Source: Methylomonas fluvii (GTDB taxonomy: Bacteria; Pseudomonadota; Gammaproteobacteria; Methylococcales; Methylomonadaceae). From it: a stretch of DNA of 64,000 bases. Below the pieces are notes generated by a model. That model saw only the letters and a list, made by a program, of their open reading frames with translations. It ran no database searches and was not told where the DNA came from. The translations under genes and the position numbers were made by a program. Positions 31,324 to 61,864 of this stretch are shown piece after piece (positions within the stretch are counted from its first letter, which is position 1; every line of letters starts with the position of its first letter). The stretch is taken from NCBI RefSeq assembly GCF_014850975.1, contig NZ_JACXST010000003.1:744001-808000 (forward strand). The letters are read 5' to 3'.

Positions 31324-33132
31324 TTAGTCGGGGCGAGCAAGATAGGCGCGCCAGCCGCCGTAATCGGTAATGTCCAGCGCCTCGCGCACGGCGGCCGCTT
31401 CGCAAACAAAGCCCTGCACACTAGTGCCGTCCTGCAATTGCACGCTGCCGATACCCAAGGGTGGCGGGATTTCGGCGACGAATTCCCCGTAACGGCCAAT
31501 CGGCAAAGCCCACACCTCAACGGCAATCGCCGCGCCGGTTTCGTCGCGCACCATGCCCGGCCGCTTGCCGTCCGGCAATGCGTACAGCCGGTAGCTCGGC
31601 GCGGTGTGAGTCCGTTGCAGCAACACGCCGCCTCGGCCTGTCAAGAGACGGTTCAGCGGCAAGCCGGATAGATGCGCGCCGCACACTGCAACCCGAGCAA
31701 AGCCGGTCGCGTCGTCGCTGTCCGCTGCGGGAAATTCTGTGCTTAAGGTTTGGGAGACGCCCAACTTATGCGGCACCGATTGCTCGCGCCGTTTCGCCAA
31801 GGCCAGCAAAGCCTGGTCGGCAAAGGCCGGCGCGCACAAGGTGATGCCGAACGGCAGGCCATTGCCGCGAAAACCGGCCGGCAGTGCAATGGCGCTGAGG
31901 TCGAGCAAATTCATGAAATTGGTGTAATAGCCCAAGCGGTTGTTCAATTCGAGCGGTTCGGCTTCAACGGCGGCAATCGGGTAGATGGTGCCGGTGGTCG
32001 GCGTCACCAATACATCGATTTGGCTCCAGATCGCGTCGCTTCGCACCTTCAATTCCTGCAAGCGGTAAAACGCACGCCAGGCGTCGGCGGCCGACAAGTT
32101 GGCGCCGTTGGCAATGATGGCGCGCGTCACTGGAAATAAGGCTTCGGGCTGGTTTTGCAACAATTCGCCGGCCACCAAATAACGCTCGGCCAGCCACGGC
32201 CCGGCATAGAGCAACTCGGCGGCATCCAGCAAGGGCTGAATGTCCACTTCGACGGGGCTGCCGCCTTGCCCTACCAGTTCCGCAACCGCCTCGGCGAATA
32301 ATGCGCTGGCGGCGGCGTCGCCGAAAAATTGCAGTTGCTCCGGTTTCGGCATGCCGAAACGGAAACGGCCGGCAAAGCCCGGCGGCACCGGCAAGGGCTG
32401 GTCGGGACGGTTATAGGCATCTTCTGCGTCGTAAACGTTGGCGACCCGCATTACTTGCTCGGCGTCGGCGGCCGTCAACGCGAAGATCGACACGCAATCC
32501 AGGCTGCGGCAAGCCGGCACCACACCGGACGTGCTTAACAAGCCCCGCGTCGGCTTGACGCCGACCAGGTTATTGAACGCGGCCGGCACCCGGCCTGAGC
32601 CGGCGGTGTCGGTGCTCAACGCAAAGCTGACCAGACCGGTTGCCACCGCGACCGCCGAACCCGAGCTGGAGCCGCCGGCGATGTAAGCCGGATCGAAGCT
32701 GTTGCGGCAAACACCATAGGGCGAGCGGGTGCCGACCAAACCGGTCGCGAACTGGTCCAGATTGGTCTTGCCGACAGGGATCGCCCCGGCGGTGATCAAT
32801 TGCCGCACCACGAAAGCCGACTGCTGCGGCGAGTAGGCATAGGCCGGACAAGCTGCTGTGGTGGGCAAATCGGCCAAATCGATATTGTCTTTGATCGCAA
32901 ACGGGATGCCGTACAAGGGCAAGTCGTCCGGCGACTGGTCCGCTAGCGCCGCGGCGTAAGCCAGCATGCCTTCGAACGGCAAACGGCTGATCCAGACGCC
33001 GCTCTCCGGCGCGGATTCCAGACGCTGCCAGAGCATTTCCACTAGAGCCGTCGGCGTCAGCGCGCCGTCCCGGTAAGCTTGGCCGAGGTCGGAGATGCTG
33101 AGTACCTCGGGCAATTCGGTCCAGGTCTTCAT
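31324..33132 (-). CDS. atzF: Allophanate hydrolase
   Basis: A 602-residue two-domain enzyme that splits allophanate into ammonia and CO2, the last step of guanidine (or urea) assimilation. The amidase-signature domain (about 1-440) shows the Ser-cisSer-Lys triad: Lys in [24 protein letters not shown], and the nucleophile in [15 protein letters not shown]-terminal domain (about 480-600, [15 protein letters not shown]) is the AtzF/DUR1-type part. It overlaps the carboxylase stop by four bases (ATGA). The symbol atzF is one of several in use for this family. Confidence 0.92.
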
Positions 33133-36100
33133 ACGTCCTCCCCGGCCTGCAGCACCAACAAATCCTGGCCGGCGCTGATTTGGGCGCCTTCATTGCAAAA
33201 TACTTTCCAGACCGTGCCGTCTGCCGGTGCCGTTACCGGGAATTCCATTTTCATCGATTCAACCACCACCAAGGCGTCGCCTTGCTTGACGCTATCGCCG
33301 GCTTGGACCAAAACCTGCCAGACGTTGCCGGCGATATGGCTGGCCACGGCGCGGGCGCCGGCGGGCAAATCCAGTTCGGTATCGATGGCCGCCGCCGCGA
33401 CCGCCTGATCGTCCGCATACACTTGCCCGGCTTGCTCCCAGCGTTCGCGTTCGGCGTCGAAGGCCGCCTGTTGGCGTTGTTTGCATTCGCTGATCTCGTC
33501 GGCGTGTGCGCGCAGAAAGTCGTTGTACTGGCGCAAACTAAAGGTTTCCTCGCGGATATCCAGTTTGGCCTTGCCACTGATCACGTCCTGCCGGTAACGC
33601 AGTAATTCCTCGGCGGATACCGGGAAGAACCGAATCTGATCGAAAAAACGCAGCAGCCAAGGCTTGCCGTCGCGAAAATCGGTAGTTTGCCGGTAGCGGT
33701 TCCACATCGGCACGGTGCGGCCGACGAATTGGTAACCGCCCGGTCCTTCCATGCCATAGACGCACATATACGCGCCGCCGATACCGACCGCGTTCTCCGG
33801 GGTCCAGGTGCGGGCCGGGTTATATTTGGTCGTCACCAAGCGGTGGCGCGGATCGATCGGCGTGGCCACCGGCGCGCCGAGGTACACGTCGCCCAAACCC
33901 ATCACCAGATAGCTGGCGTTGAACAGGATGTCCTTGACCTGACCGATACTGTCCAGGCCGTTGATGCGGCGGATGAACTCGATATTGCTTGGGCACCATG
34001 GCGCGTCCTTGCGCACCGACTGCATGTATTTTTCGATCGCCAGTTTCGTGGATGGGTCGTCCCAGGACAGCGGCAGATAGACGATGCGGGTCGGCACTTC
34101 CATGTCCCCTATGGCCGGCAGTTCGGCTTCGGCTTGCGCCAAGATCCGCATTAATTCGTCCAGCGGCAGGCGGCGGTCATAATGCACCTGCAAGGAACGG
34201 ATGCCCGGCGTCAGGTCGACGATGCCGGGTATGCCGCGCTGTTGCAGCCAAGTCATCAAGGCATGTACTCGAAAGCGCAAATTGATGTCGAGTACCAGCG
34301 GACCGTATTCGACCAGCAGATTGCGGTCGCCGGCTTGGCGATAGGTCACTGCAACCTGATCGGTATTGGCCGGCACCTGAGCAAGGATGCAACTTTCCTC
34401 GAAGCTTGCTGTTACCGGCAGTTCCGGTAACACGGCATGGGCCGGATCGGCTAAAGCCCGCTCAACTTGGGCATCCAGACTCGCCGCCTGTTCGCGGGTC
34501 AGGCGGATAAATCGCACGGTATTACCCGGCTTTAATTGGCCCAGCTTCCAAAGTTCGGCCGCAACCACGGTAGCCGGGCAGACAAAGCCGCCCAGGCTGG
34601 GGCCGTCCGGCCCCAGTATCACCGGCATATCGCCGGTGAAATCCACCGCGCCGATGGCATAGGCGTTGTCGTGGATGTTGGACGGATGCAAACCGGCTTC
34701 GCCGCCGTCGCTACGGGCCCAGCGCGGTTTCGGGCCGATCAGACGGATACCGGTGCGGTTGGAGTTGTAATGCACCTCCCAATCGGTCGCGAAGAATTCG
34801 GCGATGTCTTCGTCGGTAAAGAAATCCGGCGCGCCGTGTGGACCGTACAGCACGCCGATCTGCCAGTGCTCGGAATAAACCGGTAGCGCGGCCGAATTCG
34901 GCACGACTTCCTCGGCCATGGCCGTTTCCGCCGCGACCGGCAACACGTCGCCGACCCTTAGCACCCGGCCGCCGTGGCCGCCGAACTGGCCCAGGGTAAA
35001 GGTGGCGCGGCTGCCCAGATATTCCGGCACGTCGAAGCCGCCTTGGATCGCCAGATAAGCGCGGCAGCCCTGGCCGGCGATAGTGCCCAGTTTCAACACA
35101 TCGCCGGCGGACACTGTTATGGCTTGCCAGAATGCGACGGCCTGGCCGTTCATTTCGGCCTTCATCGCCGCGCCGGCCAATACGATGCGGGTAGCGAAAT
35201 TGAAGCGCAAACTGGGACCGTTGATGGCCATTTCCAGGCCGGCCGCGTGTTCCGGGTTTCCCAAAACCCGGTTCGCCAAGCGAAAGGCCAGCATATCCAT
35301 TGGCCCGGACGGCGGCACGCCGACATCCCAATAACCCAAGCGGCCCGGATAATCCTGAATCATACTTTGCGTGCCGGCTTCCAGTACGTCCAGGGTGCGC
35401 GGTCGATAAGCCAAGCCGGCCAGATAAGCGGTGATCTGGCGGCCGCTGCGAAACACCTCGTCGGCGACGATCTGCCGCAAATAGGCCAGATTGGTTTCGA
35501 TGCCGTATAGGCGAGTATCGGCCAAGGCCGCGTCCATTTGCGCCAGCGCCTGTTCGCGGTCGTCGGCGTGGACGATGACTTTGGCCAGTAAGGGGTCGTA
35601 ATTCGGGGTGACCTCCAGGCCGTTCTCCAGCCAATGATCGACCCGGACGCCGGCCGGAAAACGGCAATCGGTCAACAGGCCGGCCGATGGCTGGAAGTTC
35701 TTGTTCGGGTCTTCGGCGTACACCCTGACCTGCATAGCCCAACCCTGTGGCGCGTGCCGGTACTGATCCAGAAACGTGCTATCGCCGGCCGCCAGCCGCA
35801 GCATCCACTCGACCAAGTCGGTGCCGGTGACTTGTTCGGTCACGCCGTGTTCGACTTGCAGCCGAGTGTTGACCTCCAGGAAATAAAACTCGCCGCTGTC
35901 CTGGTCGTAAACGAATTCGACGGTGCCGGCGGAACGGTAATTCACCGCTTCGGCCAGCGCCAGGGCATGCCGGTAAAGCGCCGCTCGGGTCGCCTCGCTG
36001 AGGCCCGGCGCCGGGGTTTCCTCGATCACCTTCTGGTTGCGGCGCTGCACCGAGCAATCGCGCTCGCCAAGATGAATCACCCGGCCCGCGCCATCGCCGA

Positions 36101-36737
36101 AAATCTGCACCTCGATATGGCTGGCGCGTTCGATGAATTTCTCCAGATACAGGCCGCTGTCCTTGAAATTCGCCGCACTCAAGCGCTGCACCACGGCAAA
36201 GGCCTCTTGCAGTTCGGCGTCGTTACGGCACAGGCGCATGCCGATACCGCCGCCGCCGGCGGTGCTTTTCAGCATTAATGGGTAGCCGATAGCGGCGGCC
36301 GCTTGCACAGCCTGCTCTATGTCCGCCAATAGACCGGTGCCGGGCAGCAACGGCACGCCGCACGCTAGGGCGATCTCGCGAGCGGTGTGCTTCAAACCGA
36401 AGCGGCGCAACTGTTCCGGCGTCGGGCCGATGAAGACAATGCCGGCCGCGGCGCATTGCTCGGCGAACTCGGCGTTTTCGCTCAGAAAACCGTAGCCGGG
36501 ATGAATGGCCTCAGCGCCGGTGCTCAATGCCGCTTCCAGAATCCGCTCGCCGCGCAAATAGCTGTCGGCCGCCGCCGCGCCACCGACGCACACCGCTTCG
36601 TCGGCTTGTTGCACGTGTTGGGCATGGGCGTCGGCTTCGGAATACACCGCGACGCTGGCGACACCCAATTGCTTTAAGGTCCGAATGATGCGGCAGGCGA
36701 TTTCGCCGCGATTGGCGATCAATACCTTGTTAAACAT
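33129..36737 (-). CDS. Guanidine carboxylase (urea carboxylase family), biotin-dependent
   Basis: A 1202-residue biotin enzyme. The biotin carboxylase domain (about 1-445) starts [20 protein letters not shown] and has the Gly-rich ATP loop [13 protein letters not shown]. Then come PxpC/KipA-like ([20 protein letters not shown]) and PxpB/KipI-like carboxyltransferase halves, and a biotinyl domain with the acceptor Lys1163 in ESMKMEF. Databases call this urea carboxylase, but the deiminase pair and ykkC riboswitch point to guanidine. The segment [13 protein letters not shown] has Asn where, as far as I recall, urea-specific enzymes have Asp; that reading needs an alignment. It acts in the cytosol. 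Confidence 0.9.
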
Positions 36738-36749
36738 GAATCCTCTTCT

Positions 36750-36794
36750 GGCGGGCCGTCCCGCCTTGCTTTGCCAACGCCGGGCCGTCCCGGC
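36750..36794. repeat. Tandem hairpins with identical CCGT loops in the operon
   Basis: GGCGGG-CCGT-CCCGCC (36750-36765) and GCCGGG-CCGT-CCCGGC (36779-36794) are perfect six-base stems with the same loop, sitting in the 69-base gap between the smaller deiminase gene and the carboxylase gene. This is the widest internal gap of the operon, so the pair may stabilise or partly separate the upstream and downstream mRNA segments. Confidence 0.55.
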
Positions 36795-36806
36795 GCGGAT
36801 TACGGG

Positions 36807-39890: not shown

Positions 39891-40886
39891 CTAATGAGCG
39901 GCGAGCGCTTCGGCTACCAATGAGGCATCGACGCCGACCGCCAAATCCGGCACGTTTTCTATCAAACGGTTGTCTTTCAAAAAGGCGGCGATGGTGGGGC
40001 CGACCGCTGCCAACGACGCCGGTTCGCTGGCCGGTTCCAAGGCTTTCAGGTTGTCTTCCAATGTGAAGAAGCGGGTGCCGGGCAGAAACACTTTGTAGGC
40101 ATCCGGTTTCATGCCGACCACTTTGGCCATGACGCTAACGGCTTGATCGGGCTGCTCGCGGATAAAGCGTTGGGTATCCTGCCAAGCCTTGATCATGCCT
40201 ACCAACTCGGCACGGTGGGTTTCGATGGCTTTAACCCGAGCCACCAGCAAATCCGGGATCAGGCCGGGCATGTCTTTGGAGGTGAATAAGGCCGTGCCTT
40301 TGCCGCTGGCCTGGATATTGTTGACCCAGGGATTCCACACCACGGTCGCATCGACTCGGCCGCTCAAGAATGCCGCCGCCGCGTCGCCAGCCGACAGGTT
40401 TACGGTTTTGGTGTCGTTGAAACTCAAGCCGTTCTTGCTCAGCGCGGTGGCGAGCACGAAGTGGGAAATCGAATATTGTTCGAGGGCGATGGTTTTGCCT
40501 TTCAGGTCGGCAAAGCTTTTGATGGCGGGATTGACCATCAAGGCGTCGTTGCCGTCGGAGTTGTCGTTGACCAAGATGGCTTTCACCGGCACATTCTTGC
40601 TGAGCGGCGCCATGGTGTCCGACCAGGTCTGGCAATTGGCATCCAGTTGGCCGGCCGACAAGGCCGAGATGGAATCGGTGTAATTGGCAAACCAGATCAG
40701 TTTGACCTTGGCGCCGTATTTTTTGAAATAGCCGTTGTGTTCGGCGACGTACCAGGCCACCCAGCCGGGCCAGTCGCTAACGCCGACCTTTACCTCGGCG
40801 GCAGCCGGTTTAGACAAGCAAAAAAATGCCGCAGCAAGGACAAGCGCAATTAAGCGGGACAGGCAGTGGGAGAAAGTAGATGTCAT
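39891..40886 (-). CDS. ABC transporter substrate-binding protein of the guanidine operon
   Basis: A 331-residue periplasmic protein with a signal peptide (LIALVLAAAFFCLSKPAAA). The mature part (EVKVGVSDWPGWVAWYVAEH) belongs to the NMT1/SsuA-like type 2 binding fold, with the domain crossover around GDAAAAFLSGRVDATVVWNP. It is the first gene of the operon. A GGAG ribosome site lies seven bases before the ATG and next to the riboswitch expression platform. The ligand is inferred to be guanidine; acidic and aromatic residues suited to a small cation cannot be picked out with certainty. Confidence 0.87.
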   Translation of the reverse strand: MTSTFSHCLSRLIALVLAAAFFCLSKPAAAEVKVGVSDWPGWVAWYVAEHNGYFKKYGAKVKLIWFANYTDSISALSAGQLDANCQTWSDTMAPLSKNVPVKAILVNDNSDGNDALMVNPAIKSFADLKGKTIALEQYSISHFVLATALSKNGLSFNDTKTVNLSAGDAAAAFLSGRVDATVVWNPWVNNIQASGKGTALFTSKDMPGLIPDLLVARVKAIETHRAELVGMIKAWQDTQRFIREQPDQAVSVMAKVVGMKPDAYKVFLPGTRFFTLEDNLKALEPASEPASLAAVGPTIAAFLKDNRLIENVPDLAVGVDASLVAEALAAH

Positions 40887-40906: not shown

Positions 40907-40979
40907 AAAAGCTACACGTAGAGGCGGACCGGTTTATAAAACCGTCTGACCTCCCGGGCTTTTATCCCGCCGTGTAGCT
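40907..40979 (-). promoter_or_regulatory. Predicted expression platform of the riboswitch
   Basis: On the minus strand AGCTACACGGCGG (40979-40967), which belongs to the aptamer 3' part, can pair with CCGCC and CGTGTAGCT (40926-40910, with a small bulge), followed by four T residues. This fold and the aptamer exclude each other. A small ACGGTTT/AACCGGT hairpin sits in between. Ligand binding would therefore be expected to prevent a terminator-like stem. Confidence 0.55.
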
Positions 40980-41042
40980 CCCCGAAAGAAGCCGGCAACT
41001 CTCGGTCGCTGACGTTCGAAATCGAACCGGAACCCTAGTCAC
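40945..41042 (-). promoter_or_regulatory. Guanidine-I (ykkC) riboswitch aptamer
   Basis: The minus strand carries the hallmark ykkC conserved blocks in order: ACTAGGGTTCCG (41039-41028), CGACCGAGAG (about 41015-41005) and ACACGGCGGGATAAAAGC followed by CCGGGAGGT (40976-40949). This RNA class binds guanidinium and turns on downstream guanidine-handling genes. It lies 60 bases upstream of the transporter binding-protein gene, in the right orientation. Confidence 0.95.
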
Positions 41043-41094
41043 CATTTTGTAAAGGCGCTTTTATGATCGCGCCTCACGTGCTGTAAAACTATAC

Positions 41095-52978: not shown

Positions 52979-53806
52979 ATGACCCAAAGCAATATCATGC
53001 CGGGCTTTCGACCGGCGCTGGCCTACACCTTGTTCTATCTCGGACTGGTGGTACTGATCCCCTTGAGCACCCTGGTATTTAAGAGCTTGCAACTGGGTTG
53101 GGGCGAGTATCTGGACATCATTACCAATAACCGGGTGGTATCGTCGTTCCGGGTCAGCTTTGGTACGTCGCTGATCGCTGCACTGGTGGCGGGCGTATTC
53201 GGATTTGTCATCGCCTGGGTGTTGGTACGTTATCCCTTTCCCGGCAAGCGCTTTTTGGATGCTTTAATTGATCTACCGTTTGCCTTACCAACAGCAGTGG
53301 CCGGCGTCATCCTGGCGACCATCTTTCAGCCCAGCGGCATGCTGGGTAAATGGTTGATGAGTTCATTGGGTGTGCAAGTGGCTTACAAACCATTAGGGAT
53401 TGTGGTGGCATTGATTTTTATCGGTATCCCCTTCGTGGTGCGAACCGTCGAACCGGTGTTGCAAGAATTCGACACCACCATGGAAGAAGCCGCATCCAGT
53501 CTGGGCGCTACTCGCTTGCAAGTGTTTGCCCAGGTGATCTTTCCCAATATTTTTCCGGCGCTGTTGACCGGCGTATCGCTGGCGTTTGCCCGCGGCGTGG
53601 GTGAGTACGGTTCGGTGATTTTTATCGCCGGCAATCTGCCTTACGTCTCGGAAATCGTCCCGCTATTGATCATTACCAAACTGGAACAGTACCAATACGC
53701 TGGCGCTACCGCGATTGCCTTGACGATGCTGCTGGTGTCTTTCCTGTTGCTGTTGTTCGTTAACTTATTACAACTCTGGGCGCGCCGCCGCTCCGGGCAA
53801 ATTTAG
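52979..53806 (+). CDS. cysT: Sulfate/thiosulfate ABC permease subunit CysT (CysU)
   Basis: A 275-residue inner-membrane permease with six membrane spans. I start it at 52979 (MTQSNIMPGFRPALAYTLFY). The EAA loop EEAASSLGATRLQVFAQVIF then PNIFPALLTG is typical. It pairs with CysW to carry sulfate or thiosulfate inward. No periplasmic binding protein (Sbp/CysP) gene is linked in the window. Confidence 0.92.
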   Translation: MTQSNIMPGFRPALAYTLFYLGLVVLIPLSTLVFKSLQLGWGEYLDIITNNRVVSSFRVSFGTSLIAALVAGVFGFVIAWVLVRYPFPGKRFLDALIDLPFALPTAVAGVILATIFQPSGMLGKWLMSSLGVQVAYKPLGIVVALIFIGIPFVVRTVEPVLQEFDTTMEEAASSLGATRLQVFAQVIFPNIFPALLTGVSLAFARGVGEYGSVIFIAGNLPYVSEIVPLLIITKLEQYQYAGATAIALTMLLVSFLLLLFVNLLQLWARRRSGQI

Positions 53807-53814
53807 GAGGCATC

Positions 53815-54678
53815 ATGCACGCCAATGTTCATGTGATTAGCGACGCCACCGGCCAAGCACACTTCAAAGCACTGCACGACCCGTTTTGGGTACGCTGGAG
53901 CCTGGTCGGCGTCGCGGTAGGTTTTATTGTGTTGTTTCTCTGTGTCCCGCTGGGTTTGGTCTTATATCAGGCGTTCTCCAAAGGTTGGCAAGCCTATTGG
54001 ACGGCGCTGGCACAACCGGATGCCATCGCCGCGATGCAATTGACCTTGGTGGTGGCATTGATAACGGTCCCACTGAATACCGTATTCGGTATCGCCGCCG
54101 CCTGGGCCATCACCCGTTTCGAGTTTTGGGGCAAAAGCTTGTTGACCACCTTGATCGATCTGCCCTTCTCGGTATCGCCGGTTATTTCGGGACTGATTTT
54201 TGTGCTGATGTTTGGCGCTCAAGGCTGGTTCGGACATTGGTTTTCCGCGCATGACCTCAAGATCATTTTCGCGGTACCTGGCATCGTGCTGGCCACCCTC
54301 TTTATTACCTTCCCCTTTGTGGCGCGGGAACTGATTCCGCTGATGCAGGAAATGGGCAGCGAGGAAGAAGAAGCGGCGCTATCGCTGGGTGCCAGTGGTT
54401 GGCAGACCTTCTTTAAAGTGACCTTACCCAATATCAAATGGGCTTTGCTGTACGGCGTCTTGCTCTGCAATGCCCGGGCGATGGGCGAATTCGGCGCGGT
54501 GTCGGTGGTGTCCGGCCATATTCGCGGCGTGACCAATACCCTGCCGCTGCATGTGGAAGTCAGTTACAACGATTACGACGTGATCGGGGCGTTTTCCAGT
54601 GCCTCGATTTTGGCTTCCCTGGCCATCGTCACGCTGGTTTTGAAAAGCTTTTTGGAATGGAAACAGGCCCGTACCTGA
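53815..54678 (+). CDS. cysW: Sulfate/thiosulfate ABC permease subunit CysW
   Basis: A 287-residue permease. The pattern LSLGASGWQTFFKVTLPNIK and the late segment GEFGAVSVVSGHIRGVTNTL, then PLHVEVSYNDYD, are diagnostic for CysW. It follows cysT by eight bases behind a TTTAGGAGG ribosome site, so the two are co-expressed. Confidence 0.93.
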   Translation: MHANVHVISDATGQAHFKALHDPFWVRWSLVGVAVGFIVLFLCVPLGLVLYQAFSKGWQAYWTALAQPDAIAAMQLTLVVALITVPLNTVFGIAAAWAITRFEFWGKSLLTTLIDLPFSVSPVISGLIFVLMFGAQGWFGHWFSAHDLKIIFAVPGIVLATLFITFPFVARELIPLMQEMGSEEEEAALSLGASGWQTFFKVTLPNIKWALLYGVLLCNARAMGEFGAVSVVSGHIRGVTNTLPLHVEVSYNDYDVIGAFSSASILASLAIVTLVLKSFLEWKQART

Positions 54679-54742
54679 AGACGAAAGGCGAAAAACCCCA
54701 GGCGTTCTATCGTCCGATTAACATCCGTTATGAGATAAACAC

Positions 54743-55786
54743 ATGAGTATTCTGCTAAACAACATCAGCAAAAATTTCGGCAAATTTGCCGCCTTGTACG
54801 ACGTCAGCCTGGAAATTCCGGAAGGCGAACTAGTAGCCCTATTGGGCCCATCAGGCTGCGGCAAAACCACCTTGTTACGGATCATCGCCGGTCTGGAAAC
54901 CCCGGATTTCGGCCGGGTGCTGCTCAGCGGCGAAGACAAGACCGAGCAACATGTCAGCCGGCGCGGCATTGGCTTTGTGTTTCAGCATTACGCCTTGTTC
55001 CGGCACATGACGGTGTTCGACAACATCGCTTTCGGTTTGCGGGTCAAGCCGCGCAAAGAACGGCCTACCGAAGCCTTTATCAGCAAAAAAGTCCACGCCT
55101 TGTTGGAGTTGGTGCAACTGGATTGGTTGGCGGATCGGTTTCCGGATCAATTGTCGGGCGGACAGCGGCAGCGGATAGCTTTAGCTAGAGCCCTGGCGGT
55201 GGAACCCAGCGTATTGTTACTGGACGAACCGTTCGGCGCGTTGGACGCCAGTGTGCGTAAAGATCTGCGGCAATGGCTGCGGAATCTGCATCAGGAGTTG
55301 CATGTTACCAGTATCTTTGTCACTCACGATCAGGAAGAAGCCATGGAAGTGGCCAGCCAGGTGGTGGTATTGAATCAAGGCCGTATCGAACAACAAGGCG
55401 CGCCGGCGGAGATTTACGATCATCCGGCCAATGCCTTTGTCTCCAAGTTCATCGGCCAAACCAATATCTTTGACCTGTCGGAAACCGAGAGCAACTGGCT
55501 GCAACGGGCGGGGATTCTGGCGGAAAAGCCGCAAGGGATCTTTGCGCATGTGCGTCCGCATCATATCGAAATCGTTAAGGCCGAAGAGGCTTCCGGCTCG
55601 CCGGTGACTTTGAAAGACTGGCAACATCTGGGGGCAACTATTCGGGTTGAGCTGTTCAACCCGCAGCACAACGGTTCCGGTGCGACGCTGTTTGCGGAGA
55701 TGCCCAACGAACGCTTCAAACAACTGAATTTAAACAAAGGTGACCGCGTGGCGGTACATATCAAACAAGCGCATTGGTTTAATTGA
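54743..55786 (+). CDS. cysA: Sulfate/thiosulfate ABC transporter ATPase CysA
   Basis: A 347-residue ATPase. Walker A is GPSGCGKTT, the signature [16 protein letters not shown], Walker [12 protein letters not shown] and the switch VTHDQEEA. The C-terminal 100 residues carry the TOBE-like regulatory domain ([14 protein letters not shown]). It lies 64 bases after cysW. With CysT and CysW it completes the membrane part of the sulfate importer. Confidence 0.93.
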
Positions 55787-55894: not shown

Positions 55895-56797
55895 ATGAAT
55901 CTAAATCAGCTGGAATTATTGCGCGTCCTGAAGGACACCCAGTTCAACCAATCCAAAGCCGCGGAAATCATGCATGTGGTGCAGTCGGCCGCCAGTCGGC
56001 AGTTACAATTATTGGAAGAGGAGTTGGGCTCGCCGCTCTACGAACGCCACGGCAAAAAACTGCTGGGTTTGACACCACTGGGCGAACAAGTGATGGAGCA
56101 GGTAGACAGGATCAATCAAGCCAAAAAGAACATCCTGTCGATAGCCGACGACTTTCGGGAGAATCGCAACGGCGCCTTACATATCGCCACTACCCATACC
56201 CAAGCCAAATACTTGCTGCCGGAACCGGTACAGAAGTTTCGGGAGAAATACCCGGGCATCACCATTTACATGGTGCAATCGTCGCCGCAAGAACTAATCG
56301 AGCAACTGCATCAACACCGCGCCGACATCGCCATCTGCACCGAAAAGCTGGACGAAGACGAGAAATTGGTCGTCAAATCTTGCTACGAATGGCAGCACAT
56401 TGCGGTGGTGCCGCGCCATCATCCTTTAGCACACGGCGATGTGTCACTGGGCCGGCTGGCCGCATTCCCGATTTTGACGTACTCGCAAGGCTATACCGGC
56501 CGCTCGACCATCGAAAAAGCCTTTAAAAATGCTGGCAAGGAACTGGACATCACCCTGTCCGCCGCCGATTCGGACATTATCAAAACCTATGTCAGGCTGG
56601 GCTTGGGGGTGGGTATCATCGCCGGCACGTCGTATGAAGCCCGCACCGACAACGATCTGGTCGTCCGCGATTTATCGCACCTGATCCCAAGATCGGTCAC
56701 AAAAATCGCCTATTTGAAGCAATTGTATTTGCCGACGTATTTGCAATATTTCATTAACGAGCTGCTTGCCAAAGCCGGTAAGGAGCATGAATATTAA
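55895..56797 (+). CDS. cysB: LysR-family sulfur regulator (CysB-like)
   Basis: A 300-residue LysR regulator starting MNLNQLELLRVLKDTQFNQS. The helix-turn-helix (QSKAAEIMHVVQSAASRQLQ) and the co-inducer domain with GALHIATTHTQAKYLLP are those of the CysB/Cbl group, where the TTHTQ segment binds the acetylserine or sulfate ligand. It would activate cysTWA and cysteine-synthesis genes when reduced sulfur is short. It is co-directional with cysA at 108 bases distance. A Cbl-like role is the alternative. Confidence 0.88.
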   Translation: MNLNQLELLRVLKDTQFNQSKAAEIMHVVQSAASRQLQLLEEELGSPLYERHGKKLLGLTPLGEQVMEQVDRINQAKKNILSIADDFRENRNGALHIATTHTQAKYLLPEPVQKFREKYPGITIYMVQSSPQELIEQLHQHRADIAICTEKLDEDEKLVVKSCYEWQHIAVVPRHHPLAHGDVSLGRLAAFPILTYSQGYTGRSTIEKAFKNAGKELDITLSAADSDIIKTYVRLGLGVGIIAGTSYEARTDNDLVVRDLSHLIPRSVTKIAYLKQLYLPTYLQYFINELLAKAGKEHEY

Positions 56798-57129
56798 AAT
56801 CCGGCAGAAATTTCGGTTTTGATTTGCTTATTTATCATAAGAACCGCCATAAAAATTTCGACTTTGCGATGCTTCACGCAAAAACAAAGACTTACAAACA
56901 TCCCAACCACCGCAGCAAGCTTGTTGCACCGAGGTAAATCATATTTTTAGATTTACATATTACAAATAAGCATTATCGAAAACTGAGCGATCAGCCCTTG
57001 TGTTGACAGGCTCTGTTCAAACCCAGTACCGTAATTAAAACGCTGACCGGACCACCGGAAGCCAGTACGCCTTCGCCGGCTGCTGGCTTTTTTTTGGCCC
57101 GCAGAAAATCAAAAGGGAGCAACATCGCC
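56798..57129. other. Intergenic leader upstream of cysK with a TTGACA box and a terminator
   Basis: The 330 bases between cysB and cysK contain no supported gene. The first 200 bases are A/T-rich. A TTGACA box at 57003-57008 has a weak -10 (TACCGT) 18 bases downstream. An intrinsic terminator-like hairpin follows at 57060-57095, in front of the cysK ribosome site. Confidence 0.5.
57060..57095 (+). terminator. Intrinsic terminator or attenuator in the cysK leader
   Basis: AGCCAG (57060-57065) and CTGGCT (57083-57088) form a perfect stem and run straight into eight T residues (57088-57095). The cysK ATG is only 35 bases beyond. A terminator in this place suggests attenuation of cysK-cysE or the end of a short leader RNA. 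Confidence 0.65.
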
Positions 57130-58107
57130 ATGACGCATTGGTATCCAGACAACTCGCAATCCATTGGCAAAACACCGCTGGTTAGACTAAATCGCATCAC
57201 CGACGGCGCACCAGTAACATTGCTGGCCAAGGTCGAAGGCCGAAACCCCGCCTACTCCGTGAAATGCCGGATTGGCGCGGCCATGATTAACGACGCCCAG
57301 CAACGCGGCCTGCTACCCAACGGCAAAGAACTGATAGAACCAACCAGCGGCAATACCGGCATCGCCCTGGCCTTCGTGGCTGCCGCACGCGGGATTCCAC
57401 TGACCCTGACCATGCCGGAAACCATGAGTTTGGAACGGCGCAAATTATTGGTGGCGTACGGCGCCAAATTGGTCCTCACCGAAGGCGCCAAGGGTATGAA
57501 AGGCGCCATAGCCAAAGCCGAAGAAATTGCCGCGTCCGATCCAGACCGCTATGTGTTGTTACAACAATTTAAAAACCCCGCTAACCCCAGCATCCACGAA
57601 CTCACGACTGGCCCGGAAATATGGACTGACTGCGACGGTGCCATCGACATTTTGGTGTCCGGCGTCGGCACCGGCGGCACCATTACCGGCGTATCGCGCT
57701 ATATCAAATTCAAGCAGCGCAAACCGATCATTTCGGTGGCGGTAGAACCCGAAGCCAGTCCAATCTTGACGCAGTTTCGAGCCGGCGAACCGCTGCAGCC
57801 GGCGCCGCACAAAATCCAAGGCATTGGCGCCGGTTTTGTGCCGGAAGTACTGGACTTATCCCTGGTTGACGAAATCGCTTTGGTGAGTAACGACGATGCG
57901 ATCGCCTACTCTCGCCGTCTAGCCCGCGAGGAAGGGATTCTGGCGGGTATCTCCTGCGGCGCAGCGGTGGCTGCGGCGGTGCGGGTTGCCAAGCGTTCGG
58001 AACACGAAGGCAAAACCATCGTGGTCATCTTGCCGGACTCCGGCGAGCGGTATTTAAGCTCAGCACTGTTTGAAGGCCTGTTCGACCCACAAGGTGTAGC
58101 GCTATGA
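57130..58107 (+). CDS. cysK: Cysteine synthase A (O-acetylserine sulfhydrylase)
   Basis: A 325-residue PLP enzyme that makes cysteine from O-acetylserine and sulfide in the cytosol. The PLP Lys is Lys45 in [12 protein letters not shown], the substrate loop [12 protein letters not shown] and the PLP phosphate loop [14 protein letters not shown] are intact. The start at 57130 has a GGGAG ribosome site. It overlaps the serine acetyltransferase gene by four bases, so the two subunits of the cysteine synthase complex are made together. The homologue beside the cyanobacterial encapsulin SrpI is called SrpG. Confidence 0.93.
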
Positions 58108-59033
58108 CCTCAAGCGAACACGGCCAACGCTGGGAAATCGATGCACTGGTCGCCAAACTGCGTGAACTGCGCCTGCAATCCCTGGAAAGCCGCCAGCGCC
58201 GCGAACATCCGCCCAAATTGCCTTCGCGCAAGGTGTTGAGCCAAATCGTCGACAATCTCGGCGCAGCGCTTTTCCCCAATCGGCTGGGGATGCCGGATCT
58301 CACCGACGAAGGTATCGATTATTTCGTCGGCCATACCCTGGATAGTCTGCTACGGCAATTGCAACGGCAAATCGGTCTGGAATTGCAATTCGTTGCCGAA
58401 CAGCAAGGCCTTTCCCTGGACACCTACAGCCAGGCCACCGAGATCACTCGACAATTTGCTGCCCAACTGCCTGCTGTGCGGCAATTGATCGACACCGACA
58501 TTCAAGCCGCTTACGAAGGCGACCCCGCCGCGCGTTGTGCAGACGAGGTCTTGGTTTGCTATCCGGGCATTACCGCCGTGATTCATCACCGGCTGGCGCA
58601 TGTGCTCTACGAATTAGGTTTGCCGCTGGTGGCACGCGTGATTAGCGAGGTCGCGCATTCCGCCACCGGTATCGACATCCATCCTGGCGCGCAAATCGGC
58701 GAAAGCTTTTTTATCGATCACGGCACCGGCGTGGTAATCGGCGAAACCGCAGTTATTGGCCGCAGAGTGCGCTTATATCAAGCGGTCACGCTGGGCGCCA
58801 AACGCTTTGACAAGGACGACAACGGCATTCTGGTCAAGGGTAACGCCCGCCACCCCATCGTCGAAGACGACGTGGTGATTTACGCCGGCGCCACTATTTT
58901 GGGCCGCATCACCATAGGCCGGGGTTCGACGATAGGCGGTAACGTCTGGTTAACCCACAGCGTGCCGCCCGATAGTCTGGTCAGCCAGGGCCAGAATCGG
59001 ACCGAAGTATTTGCCGGCGGCGGCGGGATTTAG
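58104..59033 (+). CDS. cysE: Serine O-acetyltransferase (CysE/SrpH/EpsC type)
   Basis: A 309-residue enzyme that makes O-acetylserine. The N-terminal helical region (about 1-180) precedes a left-handed beta-helix with hexapeptide repeats ([40 protein letters not shown], then [16 protein letters not shown]). The catalytic His is in the IDHGTG segment. It is longer than E. coli CysE at the N-terminus, as in SrpH. The C-terminus is Gly-rich and ends in Ile, which could fit the CysK active site. Confidence 0.92.
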
Positions 59034-59134: not shown

Positions 59135-60052
59135 ATGTCAGACATTCATCAAGCCCATACCGCATTAGGCGACGTCGCTGCGCGCACCTTATCCAACGCC
59201 ACCAAAACCGTGCCCATGATGGGTACCATCACCCCGCGCTGGCTAGTGCATTTGATGCACTGGGTGCCGGTCGAGGCAGGTATTTACAGGGTCAACAAAG
59301 TCAAAAGCGAAACCAGCATCGCCGTTGATTGTTCCAGCCTGGATGAAAGAGTGCTGCCGCAAACCTTTGTCGATTACGAAGAATGGGGCCGCGAATACCG
59401 CTTGAACGCGGTCAATACCGTGTTGGATGTTCACACCCGCGTCGCTGATTTGTACAGCAGCCCATACAACCAAATCCACGAACAGTTGCGTTTGACCATC
59501 GAAACCGTCAAAGAACGTCAAGAAAGCGAGCTGATCAATAACACCGAATACGGCTTGTTAAACAACGTCGCACCTGCGCAAAAAGTGCAAACCCGCAAAG
59601 GCTCGCCAACCCCGGACGACCTGGACGAGTTGATTGCCAGAGTCTGGAAAGAGCCCGCTTTCTTCCTGGCCCACCCACGCGCCATCGCCGCGTTCGGCCG
59701 CGAAGCCACTCGCCGCGGTACACCACCACCAACCATTTCCATGTTCGGTTCGCAATTTTTGACTTGGCGCGGCCTGCCTTTGATTCCGACCGACAAATTG
59801 AAAATCACCAACGGTAAAACTAATATCCTGTTGTTGCGCACCGGCGAAAGCCGTCAAGGCGTGGTCGGATTGTATCAACCCAATTTGACCGACGAACTGA
59901 GCATGGGCCTGTCCGTGCGTTTCATGGGCATCAACCACAAGGCTATCGCGTCCTACCTAGTATCCTTGTATTGCTCGCTGGCTGTGTTGACCGAAGATGC
60001 CATCGGCGTATTGGAGAATGTCGAAATAGGCAACTACTATGACTACCAATAA
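59135..60052 (+). CDS. Family 2A encapsulin shell protein (SrpI-like)
   Basis: A 305-residue HK97-fold shell protein. Family 2A features are the N-terminal arm (HTALGDVAARTLSNATKTVP then MMGTITPRWLVHLMHWVPVE), the segment RIAAFG-like AHPRAIAAFGREATRRGTPP and the late QGVVGLYQPNLTDELSMGLS. It has no phage partners and no cNMP-binding insert, so it is 2A rather than 2B or a capsid protein. It would assemble a closed icosahedral compartment around the desulfurase encoded next, whose gene overlaps by 14 bases. An AAAGGAAAA ribosome site and a 101-base upstream gap with TTAACT/AGTTAA repeats suggest its own control. Confidence 0.93.
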   Translation: MSDIHQAHTALGDVAARTLSNATKTVPMMGTITPRWLVHLMHWVPVEAGIYRVNKVKSETSIAVDCSSLDERVLPQTFVDYEEWGREYRLNAVNTVLDVHTRVADLYSSPYNQIHEQLRLTIETVKERQESELINNTEYGLLNNVAPAQKVQTRKGSPTPDDLDELIARVWKEPAFFLAHPRAIAAFGREATRRGTPPPTISMFGSQFLTWRGLPLIPTDKLKITNGKTNILLLRTGESRQGVVGLYQPNLTDELSMGLSVRFMGINHKAIASYLVSLYCSLAVLTEDAIGVLENVEIGNYYDYQ

Positions 60053-61682
60053 CAGTGACCTGGCTGGCCTGGCGCAGCAAGCGCTGAGCGGTGGCACGGT
60101 TCCCGATGGCTTACCGGACACCGCTGAATTGACGCGCTTGGCCAATCAGTTTTTCCGGGAAGTGCCTAATGGTGGCGAAGCCATCGATACCGCGCCGGTC
60201 TCGGCGGCAACTGCCGTACCTTTTAATAACGTCAGTTCCGGTTTCGACTCCCGGCCCGACATAGACGACACGGCTATTTCCGCCCTGGTGCAACGCAGTT
60301 TTGCCTTGCCCGGCACAGCGGATTTGCAAACGGCCCTTGCCACACCGTTTGGTAAAACTCAGCCCACAACGCCCAGCGCTTCATCGTTTTATTTTTTAAA
60401 CGACGTATCGGCATTGGCTCGTGCGGCGCAAATACCGGGTTTAGGCTCTGCGCATCCGCCGTTTGACGTGCATGCTGTGCGGCGAGACTTTCCAATTTTG
60501 CAAGAGCGGGTAAATGGTTATCCGCTGGCCTGGCTGGATAACGCCGCTACCACGCAAAAGCCGCAGGTGGTGATTGATCGGATTTCCGAGTTTTATCAGC
60601 ACGAAAACTCCAACATTCACCGGGCCGCGCATGAATTGGCGGCACGTGCGACCGATGCTTATGAAGGCGCACGACAAATCGTCGCGCGTTTTATCAATGC
60701 CTCGTCCGCCGATGAAGTGGTCTTCGTACGTGGCGCCACCGAAGCCATCAACATGGTTGCCAAAAGTTGGGGTAAGCAAAACATTGGTGCGGGCGACGAA
60801 ATTGTCATCAGCTGGCTGGAACATCACGCCAACATCGTGCCCTGGCAGCAACTGTGCGCGGAAACCGGTGCGGTACTCCGAGTTATCCCGGTCGATGATA
60901 ACGGGCAAGTGATTTTGTCCGAGTATCAAAAACTGCTGAATGCCAAAACCAAGCTGGTGTCGTTTACGCAGGTCTCCAATGCGTTGGGCACCGTCACGCC
61001 GGCGCAGGAAATGATCGAACTAGCCCACCGGGCCGGCGCTAAAGTGTTGCTGGACGGCGCGCAATCGGTGTCGCATTTGAAGGTTGATGTACAGGCTTTG
61101 GATTGCGATTGGTTGGCGTTTTCCGGTCACAAAATCTTCGGTCCGACCGGTATCGGCGTGCTGTACGGCAAGGCGGAAGTTCTGGAGGCTACCCAGCCTT
61201 GGCAAGGCGGCGGGAATATGATCGAAGACGTCACCTTCGAAAAAACCGTCTACCAACCGGCACCGGCCAAATTCGAAGCGGGCACCGGCAATATTGCCGA
61301 TGCGGTGGGCTTGGGTGCGGCGCTGGAATACCTGAACAAGATCGGTATCGAAAATGTAGCCCGCTACGAGCATGAACTGCTGGTTTACACCATGCATGCC
61401 TTGCAAGCCATACCGGGTCTGCGTTTGATCGGCACCGCGCCGGAAAAGACCAGCGTGGCATCGTTCGTGTTGGACGGTCATAGCACTCAAGATGTGGGTA
61501 AAGCCTTGAATGAGGCCGGCATCGCCGTGCGCTCTGGCCATCATTGCGCACAGCCCATTTTGCGCCGTTTTGGCTTGGAAAGTACCGTAAGACCCTCTTT
61601 GGCGTTTTATAACACTTACGAGGAAATCGATAGGTTATCGGCAGCCCTAAAACGGTTGCAGTGCACTTCTCGGCGGTTCTAG
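60039..61682 (+). CDS. Cysteine desulfurase with N-terminal encapsulin-targeting region (SufS-like)
   Basis: A 547-residue cargo enzyme. Residues 1-140 are Ala/Pro/Gly-rich and probably disordered, with short conserved-looking blocks (ELTRLANQFFREVP at 30-43, ISALVQRSFALPG at 80-92, ALARAAQIPGLG at 125-136) that would dock inside the shell. The SufS-type catalytic domain follows, with the PLP Lys365 in SGHKIFGPTGIG and the persulfide Cys503 in RSGHHCAQP. It removes sulfur from cysteine. In known family 2A systems this leads to sulfur stored in the shell. The gene overlaps the shell gene by 14 bases. Normal SufS is about 140 residues shorter. Confidence 0.93.
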   Translation: MTTNNSDLAGLAQQALSGGTVPDGLPDTAELTRLANQFFREVPNGGEAIDTAPVSAATAVPFNNVSSGFDSRPDIDDTAISALVQRSFALPGTADLQTALATPFGKTQPTTPSASSFYFLNDVSALARAAQIPGLGSAHPPFDVHAVRRDFPILQERVNGYPLAWLDNAATTQKPQVVIDRISEFYQHENSNIHRAAHELAARATDAYEGARQIVARFINASSADEVVFVRGATEAINMVAKSWGKQNIGAGDEIVISWLEHHANIVPWQQLCAETGAVLRVIPVDDNGQVILSEYQKLLNAKTKLVSFTQVSNALGTVTPAQEMIELAHRAGAKVLLDGAQSVSHLKVDVQALDCDWLAFSGHKIFGPTGIGVLYGKAEVLEATQPWQGGGNMIEDVTFEKTVYQPAPAKFEAGTGNIADAVGLGAALEYLNKIGIENVARYEHELLVYTMHALQAIPGLRLIGTAPEKTSVASFVLDGHSTQDVGKALNEAGIAVRSGHHCAQPILRRFGLESTVRPSLAFYNTYEEIDRLSAALKRLQCTSRRF

Positions 61683-61833: not shown

Positions 61834-61864
61834 TCGGTAACGCCAGTTATCCTGGCGTTACCGA
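61834..61864 (-). terminator. Terminator hairpin of the PepSY gene
   Basis: TCGGTAACGCCAG and CTGGCGTTACCGA form a perfect 13-base stem with a five-base loop, located 13 bases after the leftward PepSY stop codon. It faces the encapsulin terminator, so the two operons converge here. Confidence 0.65.

Follow-up and report, generated by a model that had tools for sequence, protein, structure and literature searches.

Family 2A encapsulins with a cysteine desulfurase cargo are best introduced by the system of Synechococcus elongatus PCC 7942, which is encoded on plasmid pANL in the order cysK, serine O-acetyltransferase (SAT; epsC), shell (srpI) and cargo (cyd). The accessible part of the report on this system describes a rise of shell and cargo on sulfate starvation and an N-terminal region of the cargo CyD that is necessary for loading into the shell (PMC8049743). 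Storage of elemental sulfur has been reported for a relative. The survey of Andreas and Giessen (2021) counted 1281 family 2A desulfurase operons, 813 of them in Proteobacteria, with SAT and rhodanese as enriched accessory genes; the available portion of the survey mentions no leader RNA (PMC8346489). The gene order of pANL recurs in a stretch of 64 kb from the methanotroph Methylomonas fluvii (C3:744001-808000 of a 5.59-Mb genome; hereafter the window). Here, the operon cysK-SAT-shell-cargo is headed by a leader RNA of 52 nucleotides (nt; 57041..57092, plus strand) that consists of a core hairpin and an intrinsic terminator. Its sequence and predicted pairing make it likely that the leader acts as a transcription attenuator, and its binder or ligand is treated below as a matter of candidates.

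The shell protein of the window is 73.6% identical to SrpI over residues 10-305. As in pANL, cysK and SAT overlap by four bases, and both cargo proteins bear an N-terminal extension, of 225 residues in CyD and of about 140 here. In S. elongatus, a rhodanese gene follows the cargo and 235 bases separate the annotated shell and cargo genes, whereas here the two genes overlap by 14 bases, no rhodanese was present among the scanned neighbours and three reference rhodaneses found no match in the window. The locus agrees with the surveyed operons in its desulfurase cargo and its SAT and departs from them in the absence of the other enriched accessory gene, rhodanese (PMC8346489). The leader RNA and the adjacent CysTWA-CysB genes further distinguish it from pANL. 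By homology, the predicted compartment is a further member of the known family 2A desulfurase-encapsulin type. The original prediction for this DNA had singled out the shell and cargo genes as a sulfur nanocompartment; the encapsulin itself is ordinary, and the surprising part is the leader RNA, which lies upstream of that gene pair.

In five aligned Methylomonas loci, an invariant block, GCTGACCGGACCACCGGAAGCCAG, stands shortly before the cysK start and is followed by an intrinsic terminator. The core hairpin within it (57042..57062, plus strand, 21 nt) comprises an outer helix GCU:AGC, an internal loop GA/A, an inner helix CCGG:CCGG and a loop ANNA, with the consensus GCU-GA-CCGG-ANNA-CCGG-A-AGC. 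The predicted terminator (57059..57092, plus strand) begins within the core, its basal strand AAGCC overlapping the 3' strand of the outer helix. The complete leader scored 66.5 bits with a covariance model, R1, that was built from 48 copies including this one. Among 64 distinct copies, letters 2-11 and 15-23 were nearly invariant and the loop was variable (ACAA in 31, ACCA in 18 and ATAA in 6 of 67 loops, besides others); the distal terminator stem varied in sequence and length while its pairing was kept. From 48 copies, RNAalifold predicted both the inner hairpin and the terminator without prompting, with changes on both sides in 9 of 16 pairs. In a count of pairs, 96.6% of the cells were paired, compared with at most 52% in alignments slid out of register, and 60 cells were doubly changed versus 12.0 in shuffles (reached by 0 of 500); the number of further pair types exceeded the shuffles less clearly (20 versus 16.6, reached by 13 of 500). 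Covariation supports both the predicted inner hairpin and the predicted terminator.

A -35-like box, TTGACA (57003..57008, plus strand), lies 39 bases upstream of the core and is conserved in five Methylomonas loci; a weak -10-like sequence, TACCGT, follows at 57027-57032 on the same strand. In 33 of 65 leader copies, TTGAC was found 39-53 bases upstream, versus 2 of 65 in a control stretch. Given this near-fixed distance, the hairpin is probably located close to the 5' end of the transcript, with the box as a predicted promoter element. About 45 bases further upstream, an A+T-rich block (56932-56961), GAGGTAAATCATATTTTTAGATTTA, is nearly invariant in the five Methylomonas loci and is a possible candidate for an activator site of the CysB-type regulator encoded nearby.

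Two kinds of described leader RNA invite comparison. The uORFC-8-2 motif likewise precedes a cysteine gene and ends in a terminator, but it codes, ahead of cysS, for a peptide containing two cysteine codons (PMC8632094), whereas the leader of the window contains no ATG. S-adenosylmethionine (SAM) riboswitches, by which sulfur is largely managed according to the accessible part of a review of riboswitch ligands (PMC9971707), are leader RNAs of sulfur genes too, but no SAM-class Rfam model matched here. A search of the whole window with Rfam 15 at the gathering score gave no match overlapping the leader; at E up to 10, region 56780-57180 yielded two chance matches, both outside the leader, and the loci of 11 relatives yielded none at E up to 1, SAM classes included. 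No account of the leader was encountered in the titles and abstract beginnings of the literature searched, which does not establish its absence from print.

The distribution of the leader was followed in three samples. The first consisted of the best 80 of at least 571 confirmed shell relatives, many of whose loci stop at contig ends, and its counts therefore describe close relatives. Model R1 was run on these 80 loci together with five plasmid reference loci, 1.4 Mb in total, and gave 50 matches in 48 of the 80 loci, from methanotrophs and methylotrophs and all on the coding strand, although most matching loci had supplied sequences to the model and so match by construction. The next gene, at most 249 bases away, was SAT in 26 cases, cysK in 19 and the shell in 5; two loci (L006 and L008) carry one copy before cysK and another before the shell. 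The model also recovered three loci that a strict terminator pattern had misfiled as terminator-less (L009, L014) or omitted (L017), L014 only weakly at 30.6 bits. In 20 whole genomes reached through the loci, searched at E up to 0.001, a single match at the encapsulin operon was obtained in 14, and none in three Nitrosomonas genomes, Novimethylophilus, Nitrotoga and the genome of locus L050. The second sample comprised 101 Methylococcales genomes, 51 with and 50 without a shell gene, in which a leader was counted from 40 bits upwards; G009, G011, G033, G058 and G059, with all matches lower, were dropped. Leaders occurred in 41 of these genomes: 37 belong to the 51 shell-bearing genomes and 4 to the 50 that lack a shell. 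In 33 of the 37 genomes having both, a leader was no more than 3.2 kb away from the shell. The third, a class-wide survey of 369 genomes at E up to 0.01, gave 22 matches. Four exceeded 60 bits, all in the Methylococcales genomes G000 and G003; the other 18 reached at most 33.4 bits and were not counted as leaders (L145 and L148 are core-like hairpins without a terminator, 15 look like plain terminators, and the match of L151 was not located). This last sample is not dense enough to rule out other carriers, and the leader does occur in methylotrophic betaproteobacteria represented in the encapsulin loci.

Beyond encapsulin operons, a second copy in the genome of the window precedes a sigma-54 activator, near an arylsulfotransferase-like gene; the domains of this activator are confined to the activator and DNA-binding parts. 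In relatives, the leader stands before a CysJ-like protein (its first 400 residues scored 422 bits, below the cut-off, with the best model, TIGR01931) and before OsmC-like and FadL-type proteins, and a tandem pair precedes a gene for a secreted protein (L187 65-190; G041:C17:70363-70491). For L106, L108 and L116, the first open reading frame chosen is probably cysK in the wrong frame, and these loci were filed as 'other'. A terminator-less form of the hairpin lies just before the start codons of Porin_O_P and Alginate_exp porins and, in loci L018 and L021, precedes cysTWA in the same orientation. Sulfur acquisition is the common theme of the leader-headed genes, with exceptions.

By its form, the leader fits a putative attenuator, with a terminator ahead of the first gene and a competing pairing by which that terminator would be excluded. 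By default, the nascent leader would fold into the inner hairpin and the terminator, and transcription would stop. Under sulfur shortage, a factor, be it an RNA-binding protein or a metabolite, would stabilise the extended core hairpin; since AGC is shared by the outer helix of the core and the base of the terminator, holding the core hairpin would open that base and the terminator could not close. For the copy of the window, the summed energies are about -22.5 kcal/mol for the inner hairpin with the full terminator and about -18.3 kcal/mol for the extended core with a shortened terminator, a gap of about 4 kcal/mol that a bound protein or ligand could pay. Read-through would then allow cysK, SAT, shell and cargo to be made together, with cargo translation coupled to that of the shell through the start inside the shell gene. 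The N-terminal domain of the cargo would draw it into the shell, and sulfur would be taken from cysteine and probably kept as a protected store, as reported for the relative. Sulfur shortage is proposed as the signal on account of the genes downstream and of the response of S. elongatus to sulfate starvation.

Several observations weigh against this attenuator. Since the terminator uses the same letters, hardly any variation is seen in the outer helix GCU:AGC of copies that have one, and the pairing of this helix rests on 16 terminator-less copies, 3 to 4 of them with a broken pair; in these 16, the first pair is A-U in 8, G-C in 3, G-U in 2, U-A in 1 and unpaired in 2, and the third pair is unpaired in 4. 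These 16 come from 22 copies first filed as terminator-less, after L009:8833 and L014 (terminator forms), L110, L121 and L122 (doubtful) and L126 (whose core is that of L030) had been left out. Kinship inflates all counts of loci and genomes. Model R1 found no leader in S. elongatus or in four other plasmid-borne family 2A loci, and none was detected in 32 of the 80 encapsulin loci and in 14 of the 51 shell-bearing Methylococcales genomes. With four carriers devoid of a shell, the leader is not specific to encapsulins, and the FadL-type and secreted-protein genes behind it are not obvious sulfur genes.

As to what would act on the leader, the form of the attenuator explanation that we favour, with a chance we put somewhat short of even, has the leader bound by a protein via the GA/A internal loop and the ANNA loop, in the manner of the antiterminators of the LicT/SacY or ANTAR type; the protein would keep the core hairpin open against the terminator. 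The targets of LicT and SacY are small imperfect hairpins that overlap the 5' strand of an intrinsic terminator; the leader shares this overlap and differs in sequence, loop and gene context. Such a binder would fit a core of just 21 nt whose internal loop is asymmetric and whose letters outside the loop hardly vary; it would also fit the terminator-less form just before porin start codons, which is what one protein site used in two ways would look like. Against it, no candidate protein can be named, and no phyletic search for one was made. The small size of the core tips the balance slightly towards a protein rather than a metabolite.

A metabolite riboswitch for a sulfur compound, such as cysteine, O-acetylserine, adenosine 5'-phosphosulfate or sulfide, is possible but doubtful. 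The leader precedes cysK, SAT, cysJ and the regulator, tandem copies occur in one genome, and further classes of sulfur-sensing riboswitches are expected in the available text of the review cited above (PMC9971707), but the core is tiny by the standards of an aptamer, with a variable loop. We are equally hesitant about the stronger version, according to which the leader would be a new riboswitch class for a sulfur metabolite other than SAM and would switch on cysteine synthesis and the sulfur compartment together. Less probable still is that the core serves as a DNA operator, for instance of a CysB-type regulator, and that the terminator ends an unrelated short transcript. CCGG-N4-CCGG is indeed a dyad, dyads in DNA covary too and a CysB-type gene adjoins the operon, but three features speak against an operator: the promoter-like box is upstream of the core, the flanks of the core pair with the terminator, and its outer pair switches between G-C and A-U where the terminator is absent. 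Repression of the CsrA type through the two GGA trinucleotides, of which the second is kept in 63 of 64 copies and the first in 57, is very improbable, as CsrA sites usually display GGA in a loop, whereas both GGAs here are in or beside a stem and the first is lost in 7 of 64.

The original prediction of a SrpI-like shell gene overlapping by 14 bases a SufS-like desulfurase, in a gammaproteobacterial host, is supported by the sequence evidence. The shell gene (59135..60052, plus strand, 305 amino acids) exceeds the curated cut-off of the family 2A model NF041162 (encap_f2a; 529 bits, cut-off 380), and the SrpI-like domain PF19307 (E 1.2e-106) is the sole domain found in the protein. The solved structure of SrpI (6x8m) aligns without gaps to residues 8-304 (E 7e-148), which makes an HK97 fold near certain by homology. 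The AlphaFold2 model was poor (mean predicted local distance difference test score, pLDDT, 47; alignment of 19 close relatives), and homology to solved structures was therefore used in place of a fold search. The family 2B model is also passed (427 bits, cut-off 400), covering just positions 208-449 of the 450 in its profile, and the cyclic-nucleotide-binding domain that marks family 2B was not detected. The SrpI pore residues G194 and P196 and cargo-site residues F262 and Y273, as assigned in the accessible part of the source (PMC8049743), correspond to G195, P197, F263 and Y274 and are invariant in an alignment of 24 sequences. A genome-wide search found a single shell gene, at this locus. 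The closest named loci belong to Methylomonas, with shells 99% identical in L002-L005. Some Methylococcales genomes (G053, G045, G021 and G085) contain several shell genes or fragments, with three full matches in G053 and full copies plus fragments in G045. One genome of the same genus as the window (G098) has neither a shell, nor CysT above the cut-off, nor a leader and offers a natural comparison strain. A protein annotated as major capsid protein on an Escherichia albertii plasmid (NZ_CP099899.1, 91249-92100) resembles the shell at E 1e-6, with 27.3% identity across 93% of its length.

The cargo gene (60039..61682, plus strand, 547 amino acids) starts inside the shell gene. Its product scored 895.3 bits with NF041166 (f2_encap_cargo1, cut-off 800), and Lys365 (GHK) and Cys503 (GHHC) are in place, as had been claimed. 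Five matches to the desulfurase family occur in the genome, and only that of the encapsulin locus passes the cargo cut-off; a second NF041166 match at C2:500650 was rejected as a cargo, being an ordinary SufS inside a suf operon. A compartment that does not store sulfur and would instead shield or speed a desulfurase feeding Fe-S or other sulfur transfer is an unlikely, though not negligible, alternative to the protected store. Encapsulation raised cargo activity in S. elongatus, and knockouts were without a growth defect in the available account (PMC8049743), but the canonical SufS operon is separate in the present genome and the relative is reported to store elemental sulfur.

An ATG exactly 14 bases before the shell gene end is present in 72 of 79 related loci. 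In 72 of the 73 loci with the usual C-terminal register, the codon that provides the AT of this ATG ends in T, whereas elsewhere in those shells tyrosine is encoded by TAT in 324 of 667 cases. Although the related loci are not independent, this bias points to selection on the overlap, and shell and cargo are probably coupled in translation. The 14-base overlap likewise occurs in Azospirillum, and the annotated starts give none in S. elongatus and Methylosinus.

The predicted targeting domain of the cargo covers residues 1-140 (60039..60458, plus strand) and contains DGLPDTAELTRLANQFF (residues 23-39), FALPGTADLQTALATPF (88-104) and FYFL (117-120). Each of the two motifs described by Nichols 2021 has a variant counterpart here, namely LTRLANQFF starting at residue 31 and FYFL starting at residue 117. 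The motif-bearing extension of about 140 residues was thus foreseen correctly by the original prediction; its disorder is just suggested, in that residues 42-137 have pLDDT below 50 in an AlphaFold2 model from a shallow alignment, which is weak evidence. A motif resembling GLPxExELxxL occurs in 0 to 4 copies per targeting domain, in several long domains at a spacing of 53 to 64 residues. A pattern written after inspection of the alignment found 108 copies in 77 domains, versus 6.4 expected in shuffles, and, in a test free of any pattern, 36 of 79 domains showed an internal repeat at p up to 0.05. The domain of the window has two copies by the pattern, which are not significant alone; its pattern-free p is 0.069 and the best pair is not the motif. 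The cargo genes of L015 and L016 encode FYFL twice (in L015 at residues 97 and 184).

Around the pair, profile matches support the identity of the neighbours. cysK (57130..58107, plus strand) encodes cysteine synthase A (TIGR01139, 450.3 bits, cut-off 351), followed by an EpsC/CysE-like SAT (58104..59033, plus strand; NF041874, 169.7 bits, cut-off 150). Upstream, cysT, cysW and cysA (52985..55786, plus strand) encode the permeases and ATPase of a sulfate ABC transporter, all over their cut-offs (CysT 377.2 bits, CysW 419 bits, CysA by TIGR00968), and are followed by a LysR-type regulator gene of the CysB type (55895..56797, plus strand), whose best NCBIfam model, NF009327 of the CysB family, scored 304.5 bits, below its cut-off of 402. 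A consensus scan placed a terminator-like hairpin of 13 pairs after the operon (61834..61864, plus strand). In the 80 related loci, the cargo lies within 3 kb of the shell in 78; on the same strand 5' of the shell, 68 loci have SAT at a distance of up to 2 kb and 27 have cysK at up to about 3 kb, and the examined flanks contain a rhodanese match in 3. Among the 22 shell-bearing Methylococcales genomes assembled in no more than 8 contigs, 12 have CysT at most 15 kb from the shell, six of these belonging to the genus of the window; across the 101 genomes, 49 have both a shell and CysT above the cut-off, 2 the shell alone, 19 CysT alone and 31 neither.

The suggestion that the encapsulin closes a complete sulfur-assimilation island does not stand, since matches to Sbp (C3:1504654), to the PAPS-reductase family (PAPS_reduct, on C1 and C2) and to the sulfite/nitrite-reductase family (NIR_SIR, at C1:316631, C1:317498 and C3:615068) all lie elsewhere in the genome. 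That import, cysteine synthesis and storage form one regulon is borne out in part. The leader heads cysK-SAT-shell-cargo and, in relatives, also cysJ and the sigma-54 regulator, but no such leader was found at cysTWA-cysB of the window, and import is therefore not placed in the leader regulon here. Elsewhere in the window, a guanidine-I (40949-41049, minus strand) and a guanidine-II riboswitch (36752-36796, minus strand), both above the gathering score, adjoin genes for an ABC-type substrate-binding protein (39891-40886) and a biotin-dependent carboxylase of 1202 amino acids (33129-36737).

The 52-nt leader common to cysK, SAT, shell and cysJ offers a point of entry to the question of what turns sulfur encapsulins on. 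The selected overlap of shell and cargo genes and the repeated targeting motif may be useful for encapsulin engineering. Whatever its binder, the hairpin would outline a sulfur regulon in methanotrophs and methylotrophs.

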